From Pristionchus mayeri (taxonomy: Eukaryota; Nematoda; Chromadorea; Rhabditida; Neodiplogasteridae): DNA of 64,000 nucleotides. Below the pieces are notes generated by a model, which saw only the letters and a list, made by a program, of their open reading frames with translations, had not been told where the DNA came from and did no database searches. Both the position numbers and the translations under genes were made by a program. Positions 34,378-61,989 of the stretch are shown here, in pieces. Numbering within the stretch: position 1 is the stretch's first letter; each line of letters opens with the position of its first letter. Location: assembly GCA_036245805.1 (NCBI GenBank), contig BTRK01000004.1:6944001-7008000 (forward strand), written 5' to 3'.

Positions 34378-37300
34378 TCAGTGAATTACTAGCTCGTCCT
34401 CCTCTGGTACTCCGTATCTTGCTTTGTGCTCGTCGAACAACTGAGTCAGCCTACTGATGTAGAGAGCGTGCAGGGCGTCGATCTGAAAATACATTTATTG
34501 ATTGATTTATTGATTTTATTGTTTATTCAAAATATGATTTTCGCTCCTGTAAATTGTTTCCTTCATGTATCGCGAAAACTGAGTAAAGTACCTGCTCTTG
34601 GTTCGGGTTTTCGGTCTTCTCCACTGGAATGGGCGCGCCAAGGACAGTGTCCAGCTTCTTCCTAGCAATGCCAGTATATGCCTACATGGTGTGATTCAAA
34701 GGAGCGTCTACCTGAACGGCAAGAGTCCAAAATTGTAGGTGAAGACGCTTCGACCGTACGCGATCACCGGAGACACCCCGCATAGCTGTTTCACCCATTC
34801 CTGCATGTTGCGCACGGTCGAGCCCTGATCGTGAGAGTTACGGTAGGTCAACATTTCACCGCTGAATGATGCAGGAAGAACTAATGTCCGGCAGTATACG
34901 CGACGGATGGGGGCACTTCTCATTTACAAATATGTCCAATCGGATTAAGTTTGCCTACCGAACCTGCTCATTCGCTGCTTGGCAGTAGAGATCGTTCTCG
35001 CCGAAGCCAAAAGAGGGCACGAGATGAGCGCCCGTCTCTAGCGCCAGCTTGATAAATCCCTGAGATGGACAGGATACAGTAGATCACTCCGTATACCAAT
35101 TATATTACTTATGGTGTAGGTATACTGGGAAAGCTATTGTACTCATTCAATTGCTTGAGATATTTTTCAATCGGATTTCACTGAAACTTGAACGAAAGTG
35201 ATCGTCTCATCATATGCTATTCTCTCTCACCACTCGACTGGTTTATGCGGAGTGAGGAGACGCCTAGCTAAAATGAAGAACTCTATTTGCTACCGTACCT
35301 TTCTGTGCTTGAGTGTGAGCACATATCTTCCAGGATGAGCATCGAGTGCCTCCTCCGCTCCGCCCACCACCAACACTGCAGCCTGACCCTTGCGTTCGTT
35401 GCCCAGCACGTATCTTGAATAGATGTTCGTTCAAATCGTGGATGCGTTGCGGTCACGCGAGGCGGCTTGGTGCTCACCGTAGCGATTCCTTGGAGCAGTT
35501 GATCACACCGTGCAGCAGGAACCACTCACGACGGAGCGGCACGTAGAAGTTGCCCACCTATTCATTCTGTTTTATGTAATATACTAATATTATTATGATC
35601 ATATAATAATATTGTTATACTATTATAAAAAAAACCTTTTTTTGTTCAGAAAGAAACGTCAAAAAACTTGTGTTTATCATAAATGATTTATATTCCTACT
35701 ATCCTAGCAATAAAATTGAATTGAGATCATAGGTGTCCACGCATGCGGCGACCCCCATGCCCCCCTATTCATGGTTGCGCATACCCTGTGACAGGGCATT
35801 CGTGCTATTGCACTGCTGGCTCACTGTCTCATGTACGCATATGGGTGAAATTAACGTATTTTCTGTATGTTTGCAATGGTGCTCATAACATTCAAGCGTT
35901 AGCTGCAGCTTTTTGCAACTTTTCGCGCCATATCCAGGAAATAGAGCTTTAGAGTTGGTCATATCCGGAAAATTTGTAGAATTACACAAATAGTACTGTA
36001 GGATTACAGCGCAAAATTAAAATATTGCTTATTTTTGTAGGGATTACTGTAGGATTACTCAAATTTAAATTCAAACATTGAAAGATTACACGCGAAATTA
36101 AAATTAAAATAATGCGAAATTAAAATTAAAATATTTAAAAATGATTGTATGAAAAATGCGAAATTAAAATTCAAATAATGAAGGATTACTGTATTCGGGT
36201 TACGGTAGTCAGGTTACGGTAGCCGGGTTACGGTAGCCGGGTTTTAGTATCAGGGTTACGGTAGGCGGGTTACGGTAGTCGGCAAGATCAAAGGGCGAGG
36301 GAGAGGGGCGAGGGAGGGGAGGAGGGGGTAATTAGCCCGAGGGCGGCTCAAGGACATCCGCTCCCCCTAGGGTTGGAATCTTAAGACCCTATATTCTACT
36401 GTTATCTACGTGAGAAAATACACCGGAAAAACTATTAAAACGAAGCTTTTCGGAAACAAATTTTTCACCCCCAAAAATGAGGGGTTACTGTAACAATTTC
36501 GAAATCGATCCCAGACCCTAGCCAATGGTGCCTGCATTCCTAACTTTGGTCCCATACTTCAAGAAAAAAGTTTGGAGGAAATCCATTTTTTGACCAACCG
36601 TGACCCCTGCCCAGGTGTTACGTTCTCTCGTGGACGGTCTCTTAAAAAGGATCAGTAATGCTTGGCCGTGATACCGTAACCTAGATAAAGTAACCCAAGT
36701 ACAGTACCATAACTGGCTATCGTGAACTGACTTAATTTTTTTCTGAAATTTAAATTAAGTCAAATTAAGTCAGTTCACGATAGCCAGTTATGGTACTGTA
36801 CTTGGGTTACTTTATCTAGGTTACGGTATCACGGCCAAGCATTACTGATCCTTTTTAAGAGACCGTCCACGAGAGAACGTAACACCTGGGCAGGGGTCAC
36901 GGTTGGTCAAAAAATGGATTTCCTCCAAACTTTTTTCTTGAAGTATGGGACCAAAGTTAGGAATGCAGGCACCATTGGCTAGGGTCTGGGATCGATTTCG
37001 AAATTGTTACAGTAACCCCTCATTTTTGGGGGTGAAAAATTTGTTTCCGAAAAGCTTCGTTTTAATAGTTTTTCCGGTGTATTTTCTCACGTAGATAACA
37101 GTAGAATATAGGGTCTTAAGATTCCAACCCTAGGGGGAGCGGATGTCCTTGAGCCGCCCTCGGGCTAATTACCCCCTCCTCCCCTCCCTCGCCCCTCTCC
37201 CTCGCCCTTTGATCTTGCCGACTACCGTAACCCGCCTACCGTAACCCTGATACTAAAACCCGGCTACCGTAACCCGGCTACCGTAACCTGACTACCGTAA

Positions 37301-40300
37301 CCCGAATACAGTAATCCTTCATTATTTGAATTTTAATTTCGCATTTTTCATACAATCATTTTTAAATATTTTAATTTTAATTTCGCATTATTTTAATTTT
37401 AATTTCGCGTGTAATCTTTCAATGTTTGAATTTAAATTTGAGTAATCCTACAGTAATCCCTACAAAAATAAGCAATATTTTAATTTCGCGTTTTTCCTAC
37501 AGTAATCATACAGTAATCCCTACAAAAATAAGCAATATTTTAATTTTGCGCTGTAATCCTACAGTACTATTTGTGTAATTCTACAAATTTTCCGGATATG
37601 ACCAACTCTAAAGCTCTATTTCCTGGATATGGCGCGAAAAGTTGCAAAAAGCTACAGCTAACGCTTGAATGTTATGAGCACCATTGCAAACATACAGAAA
37701 ATACGTAAATTTCACCCATATGCGTACATGAGACAGTGAGCCAGCAGTGCAATAGCACGAATGACAGGTCTCTCTCTCTCACCCACCCTTGAGGTCAACC
37801 TCTCCCTCCCATTCCCTCTCCCTCCACCTCCCCTCCCTCCGCCTCCCCTGCCTCTCCCTCCGCCTCCCTCCCTCTCCCTCCTCGCCGACTGCCAGCCGGA
37901 CCCCTCTAGCGCACTACCGTAATCCCACCTACAGTAATCCAAGTACCGTAATCGGGTCATGCTTTTCCCGCAAAGTCAGAGAAAAACCAGCCATAACATG
38001 CGGAAATACTCGAGACATAGTCAGTACACTCGCAATTCAATATCCCGACTAAGCATTTGAACCCACTGTACACAGGCTCCGCCCACTTTTGCTTTCGTCG
38101 CTGTCCAGAGTCACGCCTATATTTAATCACCAGTCATGCTAATCCTCGCACACTTGACACAAATCCGAGCAATAGCCACACGAGAGAGCGTAGACGGTCA
38201 GATAAACCCCACACACTGACACAATCGATGGTAAGATTGTACAATCGGTGGCAGCATTTTGACCCAGCGCTGCGGAAGTATCATCTTGACCTCCTAGCAA
38301 GACTACCCATACCAAACAATGGTGCAAAAGTAGCAAAATTGAGCCAATAGCCGCTTATTCATAGCACAATTTGGTTCAATGACACTACATTCATGGTAGA
38401 AATTAGTAAAACTACAGCTTATACACAACAAAATTGGTGTAATGTAAGCTTATTTAGACCATAATATGTGTGCTTTAAGCTTGTGCATTGCAAAATTAGT
38501 CCAATTTCATATTATTTACATCAAAATTTGTCCAAAAACACCATGTTCATGCCAAAATAGGTGTACATTAGGGCTATTAATATCAAAATAGGCGCGTTTA
38601 AGCTTGTTCAGACCAAAATTAGTGCAATTTCAGCTTAACTACAGCTAAATTTGTCCAATAACAGCAAATACATAGCAAAATAGGTCTTAAACACCATATT
38701 CACAGCAAATTTGGTTCAAAATCAGCGTATTCATAGCAAACTTGATGCCGAAACACCATATTCACATCAAATTTGGTTCATAATAAGCTTATTCATTGCA
38801 AATTTGGTGTCAAATACTATATTCAATGCAAATTTGACACCATGCAAGGTTGTTCAGCCCTCAAATTGGTCCCAAAAACACTATATTTATAGTAAAATTG
38901 GTCCAAAATAGCTTAAGCATACCAGAAATTGGCGTATTTTAAGCCTGTTCATAGTAAAATTGGTCCAAAATAGCTTATGCATACCAGAAAAAAAAACACC
39001 ATATTCATAATAAAATTGGCCAAAAACACCAAAAACACCATATTCATAATAAAATTGGTGTACTTTAAGCAATTCAGACCAAAATAGGTAAACTTTCAGC
39101 TGTTCATACCAAAATCTGTGCAATTACAGCTTATCTACAGCAACTTTGGTTCCATAAGATTTTCATAACAACAATTGCGTACTGTAAGCGTGTTTAGACC
39201 CAAATTGGACCAATAATACCATATTCACAACACAATTGGTCGAAAAACATCTTATCCAGGGCAAAATTGGTCCAGTAGTGTCTTATTCATAGCAAATTTG
39301 GTCCAAAACACCATATCCATAGCAAAATTGGTCCAGAAACATCATATTCATAGCTAATTTGATGGTGTGACACCTTGTCCGTACCACCAATAGATAAAAC
39401 AACAACTTATTTGCTACAAACACAGAAGTATTCCGGTTTTTAGACGTAGATAGACGGTTCTGACCGGTTTTTAGACGCATATAGATGGTCATTGCAGCAC
39501 GCAACCAGTGGACATATCACACTTTATGGTGAGTCTTGCTTATCCTCGAAACGCTGCAACGGTAGGTTCATGGAAACACACATCATATGCAGTTGATCAG
39601 CTACACACGTAGATAGTTGTGCCTAGTAGTTTCATGCATATATTCACTCTAGCAAGTGGTATAACACGTGCTCGTAGGATGTGTATTCATTGCAAAGACG
39701 GTTCAATGACCGGTTAATCCTAAGACAACACGTGAAGACGTTTGGTTCTACAGAAAACGTCGATGTATACCTATGCCAGACAGTCGAGTTGGTTCTGGAC
39801 GTGTTTCAGCGTGTAAACCCATTGAGGACAGCAGATATTAAATGCATTTATTAACACTATGTACAACACAAGCAGACGAATCCTTAACACAATGCACATA
39901 TTATGTGTCTGTGCAAGTGTACATGTTTACACTTATGTGCGTGTGCATGTGTACATGTGAATGTGTGTAAGTGTCTGCGCATATTTGCGCATGTGTGCGA
40001 GTGTGCGCGCATGTGCATGTGTGCGTGTAAGTTACGGACATGTGTGTTCATGTGTGCGTGTATGTTGCACATGTGTGTGCGTGTATGTTACACATGTGTG
40101 CGTGTATGTCGCACATATGTGCGCGTGCAAGTGTGCAAATGTACACGTGTGCATGTCAATTCCACGTTTGGACGCGCAATCTTCCACCACCATGTTGCGG
40201 ACGCTTTGTGCGTACTTCCGAAAATGCTCTAGGAAGTGCATCATGTGGAGTACGACGTTTACGAGTTGTTAGGTTACGAATAAAGGGTAATGGACGAGGA

Positions 40301-43300
40301 GGCCGACCGATTGGTGCGTCAGCAGCACGCTTTCTACTAGGACCAGGAGGTGGGTACCGTAGTGTAGGTGGATGTGGGAAATTAAAGAAACCATCATTTC
40401 CAGGTCGTTTAACACCTTTACCCGGTACTCGTTGTGGTGCTTTTCTTATACGAGATGCTCGCGGTGGTGCAACAAAGGCTACAGGCTGTGGTGCAGAAGT
40501 TTGCACTGCAAGTGTTTGAAATGGTTTTTGTTGTTGGGTAGGTACCTCTTGTTGTACTTGTGGCTGATGTCTTCGTCTCTTTTGAATCTTGCTATGTATT
40601 GGTACACGGGGGATACGATCGTGACCATGCTGTACCGCCGACCTGCGTGGTGAAGGAGACCTCTCTTCTTCTTCTTCTTCTTCATCCTCATCTTCTTCCT
40701 CATCTTCTTCTTCTTGCTCGTCGTATTCGTTCTCTTCTTCTTCATGATGTGTACGTGATTCTATACTCATTTTGAAATTGTGAATACGCTTGAGTAAATC
40801 CTCGTAAAGCATTCGCTTCTCATGACCGGGCATGTTAGGCAATTTCAGCATTTCCAGAACTTGATTTTCCATTTGCTCAAGTGTAGCTTCGTCCTTCTTG
40901 AGTGCAATTATAGGCATGAGCTTATATTTTGACGTGTTATTCATGATGACTACAGTTGTGATCGGTTCTGGGAGAACGCTTCAGGTAAGTCTGTGTATTT
41001 TGCGCATTCATTACGGCAAGTGTGTGTATTTTTCTGATTCATTACGGTTGGATATGCATGCATTAGGTTACTTTATGTGTGTGTTTCTTTATGGTATGTT
41101 TGCCGGTGAATTACTGTAAAACTGTGCGTATTACGCTACTTTTTGGGTGTTTTCCTGTTGATCATGGTGAGTATGTGTCTATTGATGATGTATTTCAGTA
41201 CCTTATGGGTGTTTTCTTGCTGAAGTACGGTAACTATTCATGTATTGGTGATGTATTGTGCTACTTTATGGGTACATTCCTGTACTTTATGGATGTTTTG
41301 TTGCTGAACTATAGTAAGTATGCATGTATTGGTGATGTATTGGGCTACTTTATGGATGTTTTTGTTGTTGAACTACGGTAACTATGTATGCATTGGTGAT
41401 GTATTGTGGTACTTTATGTGTGTATTGCTGATTCATTTCAGTACGTTATGGGTATTTGGTTTTGCATTACGGTACTCCATATGTGTTTTGCTTATGCTAT
41501 AGTATGTTTTGCTGACGTTCTATGCTGTATGAGCGTATTTCTGATATATTGCTGTACTGTATGGTTGTTTCGATGGTGTATTACCGTAAAATTGTGCGTA
41601 TTACACTACTCTTTGGGTGCTTCACAGTTGCATTACCGTAAAATTGTTTGTATTACTGGTGTATTACGCTACTTTTTGGGTGCTTTGCAGGTGGTTTACT
41701 GTAAATTATGCGTATGACTCGTGTGTGCACCATATGCGTGGGGTATAAATACATCACTCCCTGTGATTCCAGCTCATTATCTCTTGTGAGCTCGCTACAC
41801 ACCGTTAGTTTTCCTGAAGCGTTCTCCCAGAACCGATCACAACTGTAGTCATCATGAATAACACGTCAAAATATAAGCTCATGCCTATAATTGCACTCAA
41901 GAAGGACGAAGCTACACTTGAGCAAATGGAAAATCAAGTTCTGGAAATGCTGAAATTGCCTAACATGCCCGGTCATGAGAAGCGAATGCTTTACGAGTCA
42001 AAATATAAGCTCATGCCTATAATTGCACTCAAGAAGGACGAAGCTACACTTGAGCAAATGGAAAATCAAGTTCTGGAAATGCTGAAATTGCCTAACATGC
42101 CCGGTCATGAGAAGCGAATGCTTTGCGAGGATTTACTCAAGCGTATTCACAATTTCAAAATGAGTATAGAATCACGTACACATCATGAAGAAGAAGAGAA
42201 CGAATACGACGAGCAAGAAGAAGAAGATGAGGAAGAAGATGAGGATGAAGAAGAAGAAGAAGAAGAGAGGTCTCCTTCACCACGCAGGTCGGCGGTACAG
42301 CATGGTCACGATCGTATCCCCCGTGTACCAATACATAGCAAGATTCAAAAGAGACGAAGACATCAGCCACAAGTACAACAAGAGGTACCTACCCAACAAC
42401 AAAAACCATTTCAAACACTTGCAGTGCAAACTTCTGCACCACAGCCTGTAGCCTTTGTTGCACCACCGCGAGCATCTCGTATAAGAAAAGCACCACAACG
42501 AGTACCGGGTAAAGGTGTTAAACGACCTGGAAATGATGGTTTCTTTAATTTCCCACATCCACCTACACTACGGTACCCACCTCCTGGTCCTAGTAGAAAG
42601 CGTGCTGCTGACGCACCAATCGGTCGGCCTCCTCGTCCATTACCCTTTATTCGTAACCTAACAACTCGTAAACGTCGTACTCCACATGATGCACTTCCTA
42701 GAGCATTTTCGGAAGTACGCACAAAGCGTCCGCAACATGGTGGTGGAAGATTGCGCGTCCAAACGTGGAATTGACATGCACACGTGTACATTTGCACACT
42801 TGCACGCGCACATATGTGCGACATACACGCACACATGTGTAACATACACGCACACACATGTGCAACATACACGCACACATGAACACACATGTCCGTAACT
42901 TACACGCACACATGCACATGCGCGCACACTCGCACACATGCGCAAATATGCGCAGACACTTACACACATTCACATGTACACATGCACACGCACATAAGTG
43001 TAAACATGTACACTTGCACAGACACATAATATGTGCATTGTGTTAAGGATTCGTCTGCTTGTGTTGTACATAGTGTTAATAAATGCATTTAATATCTGCT
43101 GTCCTCAATGGGTTTACACGCTGAAACACGTCCAGAACCAACTCGACTGTCTGGCATAGGTATACATCGACGTTTTCTGTAGAACCAAACGTCTTCACGT
43201 GTTGTCTTAGGATTAACCGGTCATTGAACCGTCTTTGCAATGAATACACATCCTACGAGCACGTGTTATACCACTTGCTAGAGTGAATATATGCATGAAA

Positions 43301-46300
43301 CTACTAGGCACAACTATCTACGTGTGTAGCTGATCAACTGCATATGATGTGTGTTTCCATGAACCTACCGTTGCAGCGTTTCGAGGATAAGCAAGACTCA
43401 CCATAAAGTGTGATATGTCCACTGGTTGTGTGCTGCAATGACCATCTATATGCGTCTAAAAACCGGTCAGAACCGTCTATCTACGTCTAAAAACCGGAAT
43501 ACTTCTGTGTTTGTAGCAAATAAGTTGTTGTTTTATCTATTGGTGGTACGGACAAGGTGTCACACCATCAAATTAGCTATGAATATGATGTTTCTGGACC
43601 AATTTTGCTATGGATATGGTGTTTTGGACCAAATTTGCTATGAATAAGACACTACTGGACCAATTTTGCCCTGGATAAGATGTTTTTCGACCAATTGTGT
43701 TGTGAATATGGTATTATTGGTCCAATTTGGGTCTAAACACGCTTACAGTACGCAATTGTTGTTATGAAAATCTTATGGAACCAAAGTTGCTGTAGATAAG
43801 CTGTAATTGCACAGATTTTGGTATGAACAGCTGAAAGTGTACCTATTTTGGTCTGAATTGCTTAAAGTACACCAATTTTATTATGAATATGGTGTTTTTG
43901 GTGTTTTTGGCCAATTTTATTATGAATATGGTGTTTTTTTTTCTGGTATGCATAAGCTATTTTGGACCAATTTTACTATGAACAGGCTTAAAATACGCCA
44001 ATTTCTGGTATGCTTAAGCTATTTTGGACCAATTTTACTATAAATATAGTGTTTTTGGGACCAATTTGAGGGCTGAACAACCTTGCATGGTGTCAAATTT
44101 GCATTGAATATAGTATTTGACACCAAATTTGCAATGAATAGGCTTATTATGAACCAAATTTGATGTGAATATGGTGTTTCGGCACCAAGTTTGCTATGAA
44201 TACGCTGATTTTGAACCAAATTTGCTGTGAATATGGTGTAAGACCTATTTTGCTATGTATTTGCTGTTATTGGACAAATTTAGCTGTAGTTAAGCTGAAA
44301 TTGCACTAATTTTGGTCTGAACAAGCTTAAACGCGCCTATTTTGATATTAATAGCCCTAATGTACACCTATTTTGGCATGAACATGGTGTTTTTGGACAA
44401 ATTTTGATGTAAATAATATGAAATTGGACTAATTTTGCAATGCACAAGCTTAAAGCACACATATTATGGTCTAAATAAGCTTACATTACACCAATTTTGT
44501 TGTGTATAAGCTGTAGTTTTACTAATTTCTACCATGAATGTAGTGTCATTGAACCAAATTGTGCTATGAATAAGCGGCTATTGGCTCAATTTTGCTACTT
44601 TTGCTAGGGTGTGATTTCACCATTGTTTGGTATGGGTAGTCTTGCTAGGAGGTCAAGATGATACTTCCGCAGCGCTGGGTCAAAATGCTGCCACCGATTG
44701 TACAATCTTACCATCGATTGTGTCAGTGTGTGGGGTTTATCTGACCGTCTACGCTCTCTCGTGTGGCTATTGCTCGGATTTGTGTCAAGTGTGCGAGGAT
44801 TAGCATGACTGGTGATTAAATATAGGCGTGACTCTGGACAGCGACGAAAGCAAAAGTGGGCGGAGCCTGTGTACAGTGGGTTCAAATGCTTAGTCGGGAT
44901 ATTGAATTGCGAGTGTACTGACTATGTCTCGAGTATTTCCGCATGTTATGGCTGGTTTTTCTCTGACTTTGCGGGAAAAGCATGACCCGATTACGGTACT
45001 TGGATTACTGTAGGTGGGATTACGGTAGTGCGCTAGAGGGGTCCGGCTGGCAGTCGGCGAGGAGGGAGAGGGAGGCGGCGAGATAAAGGGCGGTAGGGAG
45101 AGGGAGGGAGGCGGAGGGAGAGGCAGGGGAGGCGGAGGGAGGGGAGGTGGAGGGAGAGGGAATGGGAGGGAGAGGTTGACCTCAAGGGTGGGTGAGAGAG
45201 AGAGACCTGTCATTCGTGCTATTGCACTGCTGGCTCACTGTCTCATGTACGCATATGGGTGAAATTTACGTATTTTCTGTATGTTTGCAATGGTGCTCAT
45301 AACATTCAAGCGTTAGCTGTAGCTTTTTGCAACTTTTCGCGCCATATCCAGGAAATAGAGCTTTAGAGTTGGTCATATCCGGAAAATTTGTAGAATTACA
45401 CAAATAGTACTGTAGGATTACAGCGCAAAATTAAAATATTGCTTATTTTTGTAGGGATTACTGTATGATTACTGTAGGAAAAACGCGAAATTAAAATATT
45501 GCTTATTTTTGTAGGGATTACTGTAGGATTACTCAAATTTAAATTCAAACATTGAAAGATTACACGCGAAATTAAAATTAAAATAATGCGAAATTAAAAT
45601 TAAAATATTTAAAAATGATTGTATGAAAAATGCGAAATTAAAATTCAAATAATGAAGGATTACTGTATTCGGGTTACGGTAGTCAGGTTACGGTAGCCGG
45701 GTTACGGTAGCCGGGTTTTAGTATCAGGGTTACGGTAGTCGGCAAGATCAAAGGGCGAGGGAGAGGGGCGAGGGAGGGGAGGAGGGGGTAATTAGCCCGA
45801 GGGCGGCTCAAGGACATCCGCTCCCCCTAGGGTTGGAATCTTAAGACCCTATATTCTACTGATAACGAATTTCCATGTGAAAATGGTTATAAATGAGATA
45901 CAAAAAAGTTGGAGCCAAAAAATCGATTTTCGCGATCCAAAATCCTACATAAATGAACATAACTTTGTTTAAAAAAATAATACGTTGGGTGATTAGCATT
46001 TTTCGAAAGTTTATCATATGATACATCTTTGAGAATTTTTGCAGAATTTTTAAAACGGACACTCATGTTCAAATTTCGGCCCGAAGTTGACACTATGCCA
46101 AAATTTCGTGAAAAAGATATTTTTGAATGTAGATACTGGTTCCAGCCTCCAATCATCTTCAAAATTCAAATAGAAGTCTTTTCAGATCATATAAACATGT
46201 TCATATGAAAAAATTGGAGAAATTTTGAAATTTCGATTTTTCGACCATTTTGAGCAAAAAAAAATCGAAATTTTAATTTTTTTCCATTTTGACAATTTTT

Positions 46301-48354
46301 TCATATGAACATGTTTATATGATCTAGAACGACTTATATTTGAAATTTGAAGGTGACTGGAGGCTGGAACCAGTATCTACATTCAATAATATCGAGACTT
46401 TTTCATGAAATTTTGGCATAGTGTCAACTTCGGGCCGAAATTTGAACATGAGTGTCCATTTTAAAAATTCTGCAAAAATTCTCAAAGATGTATCATATGA
46501 TAAACTTTCGAAAAATGCTAATCACCCAAAGTATTATTTTTTTAAACAAAGTTATGTGCATTTATGTAGGATTTTGGATCGCGAAAATCGATTTTTGGCT
46601 CTAACTTTTTTGTATCTCATTTCTGACCATTTTCACATGGAAATTCGTTATCTACATGAGAAAATACACCGGAAAAACTATTAAAACGAAGCTTTTCGGA
46701 AACAAATTTTTTCACCCCCAAAAATGAGGGGTTTCTGTAACAATTTCGAAATCGATCCCAGACCCCCCCCCCCCAATGGTGCCTGCATTCCTAACTTTGG
46801 TCCCTTACTGCAAGAAAAAAGTTTGGAGGAAATCCATTTTTTGACCAACCGTGACCCTTTTCCGTTTTCTGGTGGACGGTCTCTTAAATATGTTTTACTA
46901 CATTGTGATGTGCCTACATCACTCACAAGGAGACGTCGCGCAATGTATCTGGAGTTTCTAAACGAGTCCTAGCGCATTCGAAAGAGGAGAAAATTCTAAG
47001 AACTTCTATAGTTTTCAAATTTGCGGAACGCTCATGTGGAGCTCTGGGCAGTATGTGAGTTTATGGGAGTTTAGGGACATAGCCTCGGAAATTGCATGTT
47101 CCCCACTATGAGCCCACATCACAACATGAACGTTCCGCAAATTTGAAAACAACAGAAGTTCTTAGAATTTTCTCCTCTTTCGAATGCGCTAGGTCTCGTT
47201 TAGAAACTCCATATACATTGCGCGACCTCTCCTTGTCAGATTACGGTAGTTCTGGATACGGTAGCCGACAAATACATGTTGACTCGGTGTATATGATGAT
47301 GGTTATGGTACCTTAGGATTATCTTCCATGACTGAGGTTTTCCCACCACCTACCAAAAAACCATGACCCGGGGTTCATGGTTGCGAGGTCGCCGCCACTG
47401 CTGGACAGCTATGATTGAGATATGAATCGTAATACGATTGTAATCATTTTGCTTGGTGTCATTGCTTGTAGTCTTGTAATTTAATTTTAAAAAAATTGCT
47501 TTTAATCATTTTGTTTGCTTGTGGTATGCCCATTTCACTCAATTGACAAGTCGATAAATGAAGCAACGAATGTCGCAATTTCTGGCCAGTGTGCAGAGGT
47601 GGAAGTTGATGTGAGGAAAGCGATCCAGGAGTCCAGTTCCGTTGCTCATGAAGTTGTAGGCGGAAATGGAGATGACACCGTGCGGATGGAATCCGATCAG
47701 GTAGTTCTAGACAAACAATAATGTTGATTAATATTTTACCGTATGTTTTCGAGCATATCAATTTCATTTGTTTCCTTTTTCGGCCCTTGATGAAACTCAA
47801 ACAAACAATCCGGGTTTCTTAAAGCATTGTTTAGCTAAAATGCTACGGTAGATTGGTGGGTCAAGCCACTCACTTTGTCGCTCGGAAGTTCCGCAGTCGG
47901 GTAGATATTGAGCGGAAAGTATCCGCAGAACCACTTGTGGATGCGCAGATTTTGGAAGTACCGAGATGCGTAGGCTCCTGAGAGTAGGGCAATGGATACG
48001 GTAGGCTTGCGGATCAAGTACTGCCTGATACCGTACCCTGGTAGGGCGAGCCCCAGTCCCACCACAACCAGACGAAGTAGGCAGCAATCACCAGTGCGTA
48101 GCCGTTGAAGAGCTGCGGAAAATTTAGCCCGAATTGCACACTCTACTCACCATCCACCCAATCATGTAAAGAACAACCAGCGGAGCTACTAGGAACAGAA
48201 AGCAGTGGTAGAAGACGCCGAGTGTCTATAAATGGTTATATATCTTATTTCAATAATTGATTGTCGCGATTTCAATCAAGCTAAATGATACCTGCAGTCT
48301 TCGCTCCAACGGGACGTGCATCGGAGCAAACTCGATGCCCAATAGATTAGTCAT
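34378..48354 (-). CDS. DGAT2/MOGAT-family acyltransferase, split by a 12-kb intron holding the giant palindrome
   Basis: Exons: 48354-48292 ([20 protein letters not shown]), 48225-48151, 48112-48037 (TM segments), 47977-47874 ([12 protein letters not shown]), 47706 to about 47580 ([19 protein letters not shown], the HPHG catalytic motif, then [16 protein letters not shown]), 35557-35478 ([17 protein letters not shown]), 35413-35299 ([11 protein letters not shown]), 35059-34964 ([20 protein letters not shown]), 34824-34712 ([16 protein letters not shown]), 34661-34592 and 34482-34378 ([17 protein letters not shown]). The total is about 340 residues, the family norm. These ER enzymes esterify mono- or diacylglycerol to make triacylglycerol. 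Phases agree everywhere except at the giant intron, whose donor is unclear: ACACTGGCCAGAAATTG has no good GT. The gene may be disrupted, or the donor may be cryptic. Confidence 0.85.
35797..36650. repeat. extra, truncated copy of the palindrome's outer 0.85 kb, head to head with the element
   Basis: CATTCGTGCTATTGCACTGC through GGTCTCTTAA is collinear with 45213-45861 plus 46652-46886, and is the inverse of 36857-37770. It stops abruptly at 35797 inside the element's internal sequence. Only this end is duplicated. Confidence 0.8.
36651..36856. mobile_element. TTAA-flanked short palindrome
   Basis: Between two facing element ends lies a near-perfect palindrome, AAAGGATCAGTAATGCTTGG ... and its reverse complement, with an apex TTTTTTTCTGAAATTT at about 36740. 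Both outer ends abut TTAA. This resembles the small palindromic TTAA-site elements known from nematodes. Confidence 0.65.
38380..39375. repeat. degenerate minisatellite, left arm
   Basis: Variants of ATAGCAAAATTGGTCCAAAA and ACACCATATTCATAGCAAAT follow each other about every 40-50 bases for 1 kb. The mirror copy in the right arm is 43560-44560. Similar spacing but variable sequence suggests an old array within a recently duplicated arm. Confidence 0.8.
39900..40165. repeat. alternating TG/CA-rich tract, left arm
   Basis: A long tract of GTGTGCGTGTATGT-like alternating purine/pyrimidine sequence lies just 3' of the minus-strand gene, overlapping its stop. The mirror copy is at 42770-43030. 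Such sequence can adopt Z-DNA. Confidence 0.8.
40156..40944 (-). CDS. palindrome-encoded protein, 262 aa (left copy)
   Basis: A single exon begins [20 protein letters not shown]. Residues about 18-54 form a predicted helical segment ([19 protein letters not shown]... [13 protein letters not shown]). Residues 66-90 are almost all Glu/Asp, followed by a basic, Pro-rich C-terminal half with clusters RRR, RKR and TRKRR. The LPNMPG...K...LYEDLLKR pattern resembles a motif common in small proteins of Polinton/Maverick and adintovirus-like elements; this is recalled, weak similarity. The acidic-basic layout suggests DNA or nuclear-protein binding. Upstream, the reading strand enters the spacer and shows no TATA box, unlike the right copy. 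Transcription of this copy is doubtful. Confidence 0.7.
   Translation of the reverse strand: MNNTSKYKLMPIIALKKDEATLEQMENQVLEMLKLPNMPGHEKRMLYEDLLKRIHNFKMSIESRTHHEEEENEYDEQEEEDEEEDEDEEEEEEERSPSPRRSAVQHGHDRIPRVPIHSKIQKRRRHQPQVQQEVPTQQQKPFQTLAVQTSAPQPVAFVAPPRASRIRKAPQRVPGKGVKRPGNDGFFNFPHPPTLRYPPPGPSRKRAADAPIGRPPRPLPFIRNLTTRKRRTPHDALPRAFSEVRTKRPQHGGGRLRVQTWN
40987..41812. repeat. palindrome spacer: tandem array of about 64-bp units
   Basis: Units such as GCATTGGTGATGTATTGTGC / TACTTTATGGGTGTTTTC / TTGCTGAACTACGGTAACT recur at least six times between about 41150 and 41700, with looser copies on either side. This is the only unique part of the palindrome and would form the loop of a hairpin. Confidence 0.8.
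41744..41750 (+). promoter_or_regulatory. TATA box of the right-arm gene
   Basis: TATAAAT in the context GGGGTATAAATACATC, 104 bases upstream of the start codon at 41854, inside the spacer, so only the right copy possesses it. Confidence 0.6.
41854..42774 (+). CDS. palindrome-encoded protein, 306 aa (right copy with internal duplication)
   Basis: Identical in architecture to the 262-aa left copy, but residues 5-48 ([13 protein letters not shown]... to MLYE) are repeated in tandem, giving 44 extra residues. The second repeat unit has Cys for Tyr in MLYE. The gene has a complete transcription unit: TATA box at 41744, single exon, AATAAA at 43079. It then has the acidic run, the basic Pro-rich region and the C-terminal [11 protein letters not shown] shared with the left copy. 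Function unknown. Association with a virus-like transposon is inferred from the helical motif only. Confidence 0.75.
   Translation: MNNTSKYKLMPIIALKKDEATLEQMENQVLEMLKLPNMPGHEKRMLYESKYKLMPIIALKKDEATLEQMENQVLEMLKLPNMPGHEKRMLCEDLLKRIHNFKMSIESRTHHEEEENEYDEQEEEDEEEDEDEEEEEEERSPSPRRSAVQHGHDRIPRVPIHSKIQKRRRHQPQVQQEVPTQQQKPFQTLAVQTSAPQPVAFVAPPRASRIRKAPQRVPGKGVKRPGNDGFFNFPHPPTLRYPPPGPSRKRAADAPIGRPPRPLPFIRNLTTRKRRTPHDALPRAFSEVRTKRPQHGGGRLRVQTWN
42770..43030. repeat. alternating CA/TG-rich tract, right arm
   Basis: Mirror image of the tract at 39900-40165, immediately 3' of the right-arm gene. Confidence 0.8.
43079..43084 (+). promoter_or_regulatory. poly(A) signal of the right-arm gene
   Basis: AATAAA 305 bases after the stop codon. 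The mirror copy on the minus strand at about 39838 serves the left gene. Confidence 0.5.
43560..44560. repeat. degenerate minisatellite, right arm
   Basis: Reverse complement of 38380-39375, with units of the ACCAATTTTGCTATGAATAT type, almost base for base. Confidence 0.8.
45862..46651. mobile_element. 790-bp foldback inserted in the palindrome's right arm only
   Basis: Ends ATAACGAATTTCCATGTGAA and, inverted, TTCACATGGAAATTCGTTAT. The two halves are diverged inverted copies meeting near 46260. The left arm has the uninterrupted CTACTGTTATCTACG at the same place, an empty site, so this insertion came after the arms were duplicated. Confidence 0.8.
46924..47238. repeat. 315-bp foldback next to the giant palindrome
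   Basis: AAGGAGACGTCGCGCAATGT ... returns inverted near 47235 (GCGCGACCTCTCCTT). The arms share GAATTTTCTCCTCTTTCGAA. No coding capacity. Confidence 0.7.
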
Positions 48355-59640: not shown

Positions 59641-59650
59641 AGTTTGAAAC

Positions 59651-61745
59651 TAGTGGGCAACTACGCCTCTTGTAAATGTAGAAGTTCCCTGCGTATTCCG
59701 AAAATAATCACGTATTGATGCCGGCGAAATGCCGATAAAATCATGGTTCTCATGCCACGTACGTCCCAACGCTAGAGCTTACATAAGGGTCATGATATCA
59801 ACGTTTTTCACAAGCTGTTCATCGAAATCATGAATCTGACCCAGTATCTGACACAGCGCGACGGACTACTGTAGGTTATTTTTACGGTAGAATAACGATA
59901 TTGACGTTTTCCATTCATCCGCAGACAAAATCATAAATCTGACCAAGCGTCTGACCCAGCGATCATGGGTTACGGTAGCTTTAGGTTACTGTAGCAATAT
60001 GGTGTCGATGTTTTATATCGATCCTCCGATGAAATAATGAGTCTGACACAACATCTGCTCCAACGCCACTGCCGGGTTACGGTACACGGACGGACAACCG
60101 TACACCCATTTTTTGGTCGTAAAAAATTTTCTTCTGGAAATTTCTGGAATGTTTTTCATCTGCTGACCTTGTATTCCGGATGGGGTCATACTATCAAAAT
60201 CCCATCCGAATCGAAAGTGTCGAACACAAAAAGCTTTCAGATTATTGTAAATGTTGCAACTAGTGGGCAACTACGCCTCATGTAAAAGTAGAAGTTCCCG
60301 GCGTATTCCGAAAATAATTCCTTATTGCTGCCGGCAAAATCGTGGTTGTCATGCCGCGTACGTCCCAACGCTAGAGCTTACAGAATGGTCATGACGTTTT
60401 TCATAATTTGTCCATCGAAATCATGAATCTGACCCAGCATCTAACACAGCGCGATGGACTACTGTAGGCTATTGTTACGGTAGAATGACGGTATTGACGT
60501 TTTCCATCCATCCGCAGACGAAATCATAAATCTGACCCAGCGTCTGACCCAGCGAACATGGGTTACGGTAGCTTTAGGTTACGGTATAAGTACGGTATTG
60601 ATGTTTTGCAGCGATCATCCGATGAAATCATGAGTCTGACACAACATCTGCTCCAACGCCACTTAAGAGTTACTGTACGCGGACGGACAGACCAATCAAC
60701 ACCTATTTTTTGGTCGTAAAAATTTTTCTTCTGGAAATTTCTGAAATCTTTTTCGTCTGCTGACATTGTATTCCGGATGGGGACATACTATCAAAATCTC
60801 GCTCGAAACGAACGCGCCAGACAAAAACCCTTTCAGTTTATTGTATATTTAGCAACTAGTGGGCAACTACGCCTCTGTTTAAGTTCCATGAATATTTAGA
60901 AAATAATCTCATTTGGATGCTACAAAATAATGGTTTTCACGCGTTTTTTGAAACAATCCGCAGACGAAATCATGAATCTGACCCAGCGTCTGACCCATGG
61001 CTACGGATTACTGTAGCTTTCGGTTACTGTAGTAATACGGTATTGATGTTTTCCTTCGATTTTCTGATTAAATCGTGAGTCTGACACAACATCTGCTCCA
61101 ACGCCACACCCAGGTTACGGTACACAGACGGACAAACAGAGAAACGTTTTTTGGTCGAAATTTTTTTTATTCTGAAAATTTCTGATCTTTTTCGCTGCTG
61201 ACATTGTGATTTAAATGCACACCAACTGGCAAATTCCCGTTCGAATCGAATGCGCCAGACAAAAAAGCTTTCAGTTTATGGTATATGTAGCAACTAGTGG
61301 GCAACTACGCCTCTTATAAAGTTCCCTGAATATTTAGAAAATATGCCCATTTGAATGATGCAAAATGCCTGCAAAATCATGGTTCTCATGCTTTTTTGCA
61401 ACCATCCGCAGACAAAATCAGGAATCTGACCCAGCGTCTGACCCACGGCTACGGGTTACGGTAGCTTACGGTTACTGTAGCAGTAGAGTATCAATGTTTT
61501 GTTTCGATCCTCCGATGAAATCATGAGTCTGACACACGATCTGACCCAACGCCACTACCGGGTTACGGTACACGGACGGACAGACCAACCAACACCTATT
61601 TTTTGGTCGTAAAAATTTTTCTTCTGGAAATTTCGGAAATTTTTTTCGCGTAATAACTTTGTATTCCGGATGGGGAAGTACTTTCAAAATCCCTTTCGAA
61701 ACGAAAGCGCCAGTCAAAAAAGCTTTCAGTTTATGATAAGGTATG
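59651..61745. repeat. tandem array of four 440-600-bp units
   Basis: Units begin with AACTAGTGGGCAACTACGCC at about 59649, 60257, 60855 and 61291. Each contains AATCTGACCCAGCGTCTGAC, a GGTTACGGTAGCTTTAGGTT block, ATGAGTCTGACACAACATCT, CGGACGGACA and TTTTTTGGTCGTAAAAATTT, then TTTCAGTTTATGGTATATG at the end. The first two units are about 600 bases; the last two lack an internal block and are about 440-455. Confidence 0.8.
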
Positions 61746-61989
61746 CAATGCCAACGCGTTAGCGGTTGCGATGCGTGTCCAGTTTCCGATGGGACGCTAA
61801 TGTTTTTTTTAAAATAATGATTCTATGTTTTATGATTTTTGCTTAGTGTTGGAGCATAAATCGAAATTACAATTTCTCTCCCAGTGACTTCCCATGTATT
61901 TGCGTTAAAGAAATGTGATGAATGTCCCAGTAATAACGAACAATATCTCCACCATACTCTTTATCATATCTAGAATTTGTAAAGAGAGG

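Follow-up and report, generated by a model that had tools for sequence, protein, structure and literature searches.

The window analysed here is a stretch of 64,000 nt, free of N and situated within a 48.75-Mb contig of Pristionchus mayeri. Comparison of the window with itself revealed one large inverted repeat, in which two arms (left 3.89 kb, right 4.05 kb) make up about 90% of the element and enclose a central spacer, and in which each arm holds a copy of a gene here called gene X. The features of the palindrome, with arms defined by alignment and genes by open reading frames, are as follows:

37100..40985, plus strand: left arm
41813..45860, minus strand: right arm, inverted copy
about 40986-41812 (~0.83 kb), no strand: central spacer of 31- to 148-bp tandem repeats, from a repeat listing and the genome search
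40156..40944, minus strand: left copy of gene X, 262 aa, intact frame
41854..42774, plus strand: right copy of gene X, 306 aa, intact frame
41866..42129, plus strand: in-frame 132-bp tandem duplication, two units with 1 mismatch, in the right copy only
41743..41834, plus strand: promoter/5' leader with TATAAATA at 41744; it shares 72% identity with the part of the related locus L024 that leads into a 99-aa ORF
39900..40155, no strand: TG/CA-rich tract of the left arm, immediately downstream of left gene X, a place occupied by an integrase in relatives
42775..43030, no strand: TG/CA-rich tract of the right arm
38641..39361, no strand: 31-bp minisatellite region of the left arm
43569..44287, no strand: 31-bp minisatellite region of the right arm
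37868-38527, no strand: subterminal block matching C3:7661376-7662313 with interruptions, in pieces 86-100% identical

An earlier, sequence-only reading of this DNA had described a near-perfect palindrome with two divergent gene copies and had suggested an arm-to-arm alignment as a check. Aligned base by base, the arms 37100-40985 and 41813-45860 differ by 4 mismatches in 3,870 aligned bases (0.10%) and by five indels of 14, 32, 14, 2 and 132 bp, four of which lie inside tandem-repeat arrays; with gaps counted, the BLAST identity of the arms is 98.3%. Because identity extends over kilobases, the palindrome did not arise by chance. Both gene copies are present with intact frames, and the gene, minisatellite and TG/CA tract reported for each arm were found in both. 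The spacer, which had been called unique, is built largely from 31- to 148-bp repeats, and its sole match in a search of the 290.8-Mb genome, with simple repeats and very common words skipped, was the spacer itself. The limits and lengths given in that reading need correction, since positions 36857 and 46886 mark the ends of a surrounding MITE and the palindrome proper spans 37100-45860, so that part of the proposed arms of 4.1 and 5.1 kb was MITE sequence. The right arm had appeared 1 kb longer because the ~0.8-kb centre of the MITE, absent on the left, was counted in.

Besides the 132-bp duplication, the two copies of gene X differ by a single Tyr-to-Cys change in the right copy. The sole TATA box of the spacer lies on the right gene X side, and no TATA[AT]A motif for the left copy was found on its strand in the spacer. 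No Pfam family matched gene X near the cut-offs, and two homologs each were found by phmmer and by profile search (about 8,000 candidates scored in each), one of them being Pristionchus pacificus PRIPAC_86388. Searched against the genome at E up to 0.001, the 262-aa protein gave 34 matches, of which three lie in the window, and several places yielded more than one. Of all 34, only those in the window include strong matches that form a close inverted pair. Two weak matches at C5:35666863 (minus) and C5:35677520 (plus) are also inverted, ~10.5 kb apart, and form a possible second divergent pair (C5:35666863-35677807). Between gene X of the window and that of L024, dS is ~1.3 and dN 0.30 (dN/dS ~0.23), values which show that purifying selection acted on the gene over the history of the family; present use does not follow. 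An outer ORF-like block (38057-38350) was considered as a second gene and rejected, as its relative on C3 shows an in-frame stop and a one-base gap when the alignment is read by eye.

The sequences surrounding the palindrome define its insertion site:

37100..45860, no strand: whole palindromic insertion of probable Maverick type, 8,761 bp, with termini AGTAGAATATAGGGTCTTAAGAT and its reverse complement
37094..37099, plus strand: left target-site duplication GATAAC
45861..45866, plus strand: right target-site duplication GATAAC
36859..37099, plus strand: left half of the recipient MITE, with TTAA at 36855-36858
45861..46883, plus strand: centre and right half of the recipient MITE, with TTAA at 46884-46887
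35797..36738, minus strand: later inverted duplication, by alignment, of 36762-37763 (part of the MITE, the target-site duplication and the element end)

The palindromic element was inserted in a TTAA-flanked MITE. MITE sequence breaks off at 37099 on the left and resumes at 45861 on the right, each time with GATAAC, and the 8,761-bp element therefore entered the MITE with a 6-bp duplication; the expected empty site, TAGATAACGAATTTCC, stands uninterrupted in the opposite arm of the same MITE. The left half (36859-37099) has its counterpart near 46647-46883, the two flanks being only ~94% alike, and the ~0.8-kb MITE centre (45861-46652) lies on the right side, the left side being without it. 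We use the name MITE for a dispersed family, the TTAA flanks having been read at this copy. With positions 36900-37700 as the query, at least 56 matches were obtained in the genome from the 40 of 493 candidates that were scored, 52 of them outside the window; nearly all cover just the first 200 bases of the query, and many form inverted pairs ~0.8-1.5 kb across.

The element starts with AGTAGAATATAGGGTC and its far end is the reverse complement; at both ends, and in relatives, the terminus reads AGTAGAATAT(6N)TTAAGAT. In the three relatives with both ends in hand (L026, L028 and L030), this start was found without exception, together with 6-bp duplications (GATGGC, AGTGTA and AACCGT, respectively) comparable to the GATAAC on each side of the element. 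Scanning the genome for the terminus with at most one mismatch gave 20 places (10 exact, 10 with one mismatch), three of which are in the window, and a control pattern read backwards gave none; some of the lone one-mismatch places may be chance matches. The passages on vertebrate Mavericks in PMC8097293 give an end motif of (AGT)2//(ACT)2 and 6-bp duplications for these elements. Because termini, 6-bp duplication and gene family agree, the element can be placed in the Maverick family, and because the rve integrase with chromodomain is missing, it is classed as non-autonomous and not as a complete Maverick; that the palindrome is a non-autonomous palindromic Maverick/Polinton derivative is thus, in our judgement, highly probable. 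Integrase, capsid, packaging ATPase and protease had no match in the window.

To place gene X in its wider setting, the 20-kb stretches around ten other gene X places were taken as related loci. Gene X lies directly upstream of an integrase ORF in nine of the ten, L034 being the exception and the ORF of L026 being cut short; the one integrase tested, that of L028, matched rve above and Chromo just below the cut-off. A capsid-like protein is present in 9/10 (absent from L034), a packaging ATPase in 8/10 (absent from L024 and L034) and a protease in 9/10 (absent from L032), some of each being partial. The ATPase of L028 matches Pox_A32, and the protease of L038/L039 has a weak match, below cut-off, to Peptidase_C5 (adenovirus protease). 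The capsid-like protein, which we presume to be a capsid, had no match in Pfam, and its best named relative is a Pristionchus pacificus protein with 85% identity over 79% of the query.

At the nucleotide level, the closest relatives are L024 (C5:32360503) and a copy at C4:37622547-37657979 (L032/L033 plus a left end), in which gene X matches lie ~24 kb apart; the first 12 terminal bases are common to both and the element. In addition to the leader (72% over 41743-41834), L024 is 80% identical to the element over 233 bp at the start of gene X. In L024 the leader is followed by the 99-aa ORF, which we take to encode a Maverick pX-like protein, and then by gene X; the palindrome is without that ORF, and past the gene X stop codon it has the TG/CA tract where relatives have the integrase. 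The block at 37868-38527 looks like Maverick subterminal sequence, as judged from its C3 match, ~1.2 kb further out from which stands a 44-bp stretch 86% identical to bases 18-61 of the L024 end, a decayed Maverick-type end. Apart from this match at C3, the rest of the arms, beyond the ends, gene X region and leader, had no match in the related loci examined.

These results identify an element that the sequence-only reading had treated as being of an unfamiliar kind. Its guess that a giant virus-like transposon had lost its centre and left its paired end was right as to kind, given the termini, 6-bp duplication and gene family, and not quite right as to extent, since the arms are more than ends, holding a gene and repeats from the interior, and since MITE sequence makes up the outermost ~240 bp on the left and ~1 kb on the right. 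Fuller versions sought in the same genome do occur, with integrase and capsid-like genes, and polymerase B was not among the genes of the ten loci.

In a genome search for polymerase B (PF03175), with 25 candidates scored, neither the window nor any of the ten related stretches gave a match, and a polymerase fragment from the same genome had no convincing match in the related loci examined. Elsewhere in the genome the search gave 19 matches, among them ones within open reading frames of 948 and 1,258 aa. L028 (C1:634120-643329), L030 (C5:1401739-1411251) and L026 (C1:16795292-16803106) are compact Mavericks in which genes for integrase, capsid-like protein, ATPase and protease occur, some of them broken, and polymerase B does not; with spans of only 9.2, 9.5 and 7.8 kb, they are too short to hold a polymerase in addition. 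At C2:15103311 a weak gene X match lies ~11 kb from a polymerase-B fragment (C2:15114077), so that some Mavericks may carry a polymerase at a distance from gene X. Since the element has no integrase, this enzyme was presumably provided in trans by a relative, and replication would likewise have taken place in trans. The region C1:4701601-4709975 (L043/L044), where two inverted polymerase-B fragments are 99.8% identical over 1,052 bp, was considered as a second palindromic Maverick and set aside, because a third near-identical copy at C4:18794290 means that the two may be separate insertions.

Inverted duplications are not confined to the palindrome itself. At the left flank, 35797-36738 and 36762-37763 differ by 2 mismatches in 942 aligned bases and by one 60-bp repeat-unit indel, and this duplication clearly arose after integration; in a second event of fold-back repair, ~0.95 kb comprising the left end and its flank would have been duplicated in inverted orientation. 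The Maverick copy L022 (C2:27086361-27089053) contains a fragment that we take to be LINE-like (LINE reverse transcriptase), enclosed by an inverted repeat of 1,017 bp whose halves differ by 2 mismatches. At C4:43142516-43144694, inverted Maverick-like termini, AGTTGAATATAATGCTTTAAGAT, stand 2.2 kb apart, perhaps as a miniature non-autonomous Maverick.

Elsewhere in the window, an ORF at 13030-13518 matches a nematode-type Srt chemoreceptor (Pfam 7TM_GPCR_Srt), which together with the named Pristionchus pacificus relatives points to a diplogastrid-like nematode as host, an ORF at 63351-63863 matches a DDE_3 transposase, and direct duplicated units of ~0.3-0.8 kb, 79-86% identical, occupy 59644-61748.

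The origin we prefer, with a confidence approaching but not reaching an even chance, is that the palindrome was made by fold-back copying of one end before integration. A progenitor would have been copied by a strand starting from the end toward which gene X points and passing through gene X, the 5' leader and the 825-bp repeat region; the strand would then have turned back on itself a short way upstream of gene X, so that this gene and the end already copied were copied a second time, and the outcome would be two identical ends and arms with a single promoter, on the right only. As expected of such a snap-back product, the ends of the locus are identical, the loop between them is single-copy and the promoter stands on one side only; the TATA-bearing leader occupies the right side of the spacer, with the arms starting just downstream. 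Over their outermost 1,629 aligned bases the arms have no mismatch, all 4 lying further inward, and because of these mismatch-free ends the ends of the element are not older than its interior. Counting mismatches only, the terminal inverted repeats differ by 9/866 (1.0%) in L028, 17/592 (2.9%) in L030 and 19/668 (2.8%) in L026, against 0.10% for the arms, which are therefore younger than the repeats of these three relatives. The promoter on one side, the flanking target-site duplication and MITE halves, and the mismatch-free ends together favour a palindrome formed before or at integration. More specifically, the element is plausibly, on a confidence that falls clearly short of even, an integrated snap-back product of Maverick replication, that is, a palindromic defective genome formed as extrachromosomal linear DNA with the polymerase supplied in trans and inserted by the integrase of a relative. 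The joining of sister chromatids, or fusion of two chromosome copies with their flanks, was rejected, as the palindrome lies as a whole between the copies of the target-site duplication and between the two MITE halves.

The main rival to fold-back copying before integration is that a normal or reduced Maverick integrated and was made palindromic afterwards by fold-back break repair or half-to-half conversion, which we regard as a serious if rather doubtful explanation. Integrated copies do gain inverted duplications, as at the left flank and, it is suggested, in L022, and the passages on foldback priming at breaks in PMC10622511 describe inverted duplications arising in this way in yeast; moreover, copying before integration assumes extrachromosomal protein-primed replication, and no polymerase B is present in the examined loci where gene X adjoins an integrase, while the outer arms, free of mismatches, do contain indels. 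A later event would, however, have had to keep exactly within the boundaries of the element, and since the arms show no more divergence in their terminal part than further in, it would have had to follow integration very soon or to be a conversion of whole arms. Gene conversion, which the sequence-only reading had proposed as keeping the arms uniform, is not needed, as the arms may simply be young; the data accommodate conversion and youth alike.

Three further explanations have much less to recommend them. A duplication of one arm in inverted orientation during assembly is most improbable, given that 4 mismatches and five indels, the 132-bp duplication among them, tell the arms apart, and that they are flanked by different MITE halves with a fitting target-site duplication. 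It is equally hard to credit that the host domesticated gene X and retained it as two copies with incidental transposon ends: both frames are intact and the comparison with L024 indicates purifying selection, but that selection could have acted before the palindrome arose, no TATA box accompanies the left copy, and ordinary Mavericks carry the same gene family. A silencing locus resembling Mu killer, in which read-through hairpin RNA would give rise to small RNAs against Mavericks, is very unlikely as well. A transcribed inverted repeat of 3.9 kb would yield long double-stranded RNA, and Mu killer is, as described in PMC3440606, a transposon gene duplicated in part and in inverted orientation along with its terminal repeats; yet identity of small-RNA length to fuller relatives was lacking, as the element and the nine loci with an integrase have no 20-mer in common (L022 and L028 share two 18-mers each), and since the gene copies diverge from the centre a hairpin requires transcription from outside. 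Shared 20-mers were found in L034 (one) and in the C3 stretch (164).

Very long inverted arms with tandem repeats are a feature of Foldback (FB)-type transposons and long-TIR MITEs, and the element has the same long repeat-bearing arms, whereas its termini, target-site duplication and gene are of Maverick type. Protein-primed linear viruses give rise to palindromic defective genomes, e.g. the end duplications of adenovirus, which the element resembles in its identical ends placed head to head around a short unique centre; it differs in being integrated in a nuclear genome with a target-site duplication, and is known here as an integrated copy. With Mavericks/Polintons (polintoviruses) it shares AGTAGA.. 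termini close to the (AGT)2//(ACT)2 motif and the 6-bp duplication given in the passages on ends in PMC8097293, as well as a gene family that adjoins the rve integrase in relatives. It differs from them in its size of 8.8 kb, against the 15-20 kb stated in the description of these elements in PMC4028283, and in having one gene in inverted duplicate and no integrase, capsid, ATPase or polymerase. The likeness to maize Mu killer consists in a transposon gene and terminal repeats in inverted duplication, as set out in PMC3440606, and the difference in an integration with its own target-site duplication and no sign of silencing.

Copying in the manner of adenovirus is expected of Mavericks from their genes and end motifs, according to the passages on replication in PMC8097293. 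A young Maverick that consists of one end in two head-to-head copies and is properly integrated with a 6-bp duplication is the trace to be expected of fold-back replication followed by integration in trans. No palindromic Maverick is described in the titles and abstract openings of the Maverick/Polinton literature searched, and a description may exist in print. The shape of the palindrome may be a fossil of Maverick DNA copying. If the snap-back reading is true, the locus would provide sequence evidence that animal Mavericks have a protein-primed linear DNA stage that yields adenovirus-like defective genomes, and should other strains prove to hold similar palindromes with duplications of their own, genome sequences could be used to test how Mavericks replicate and whether they have parasites.
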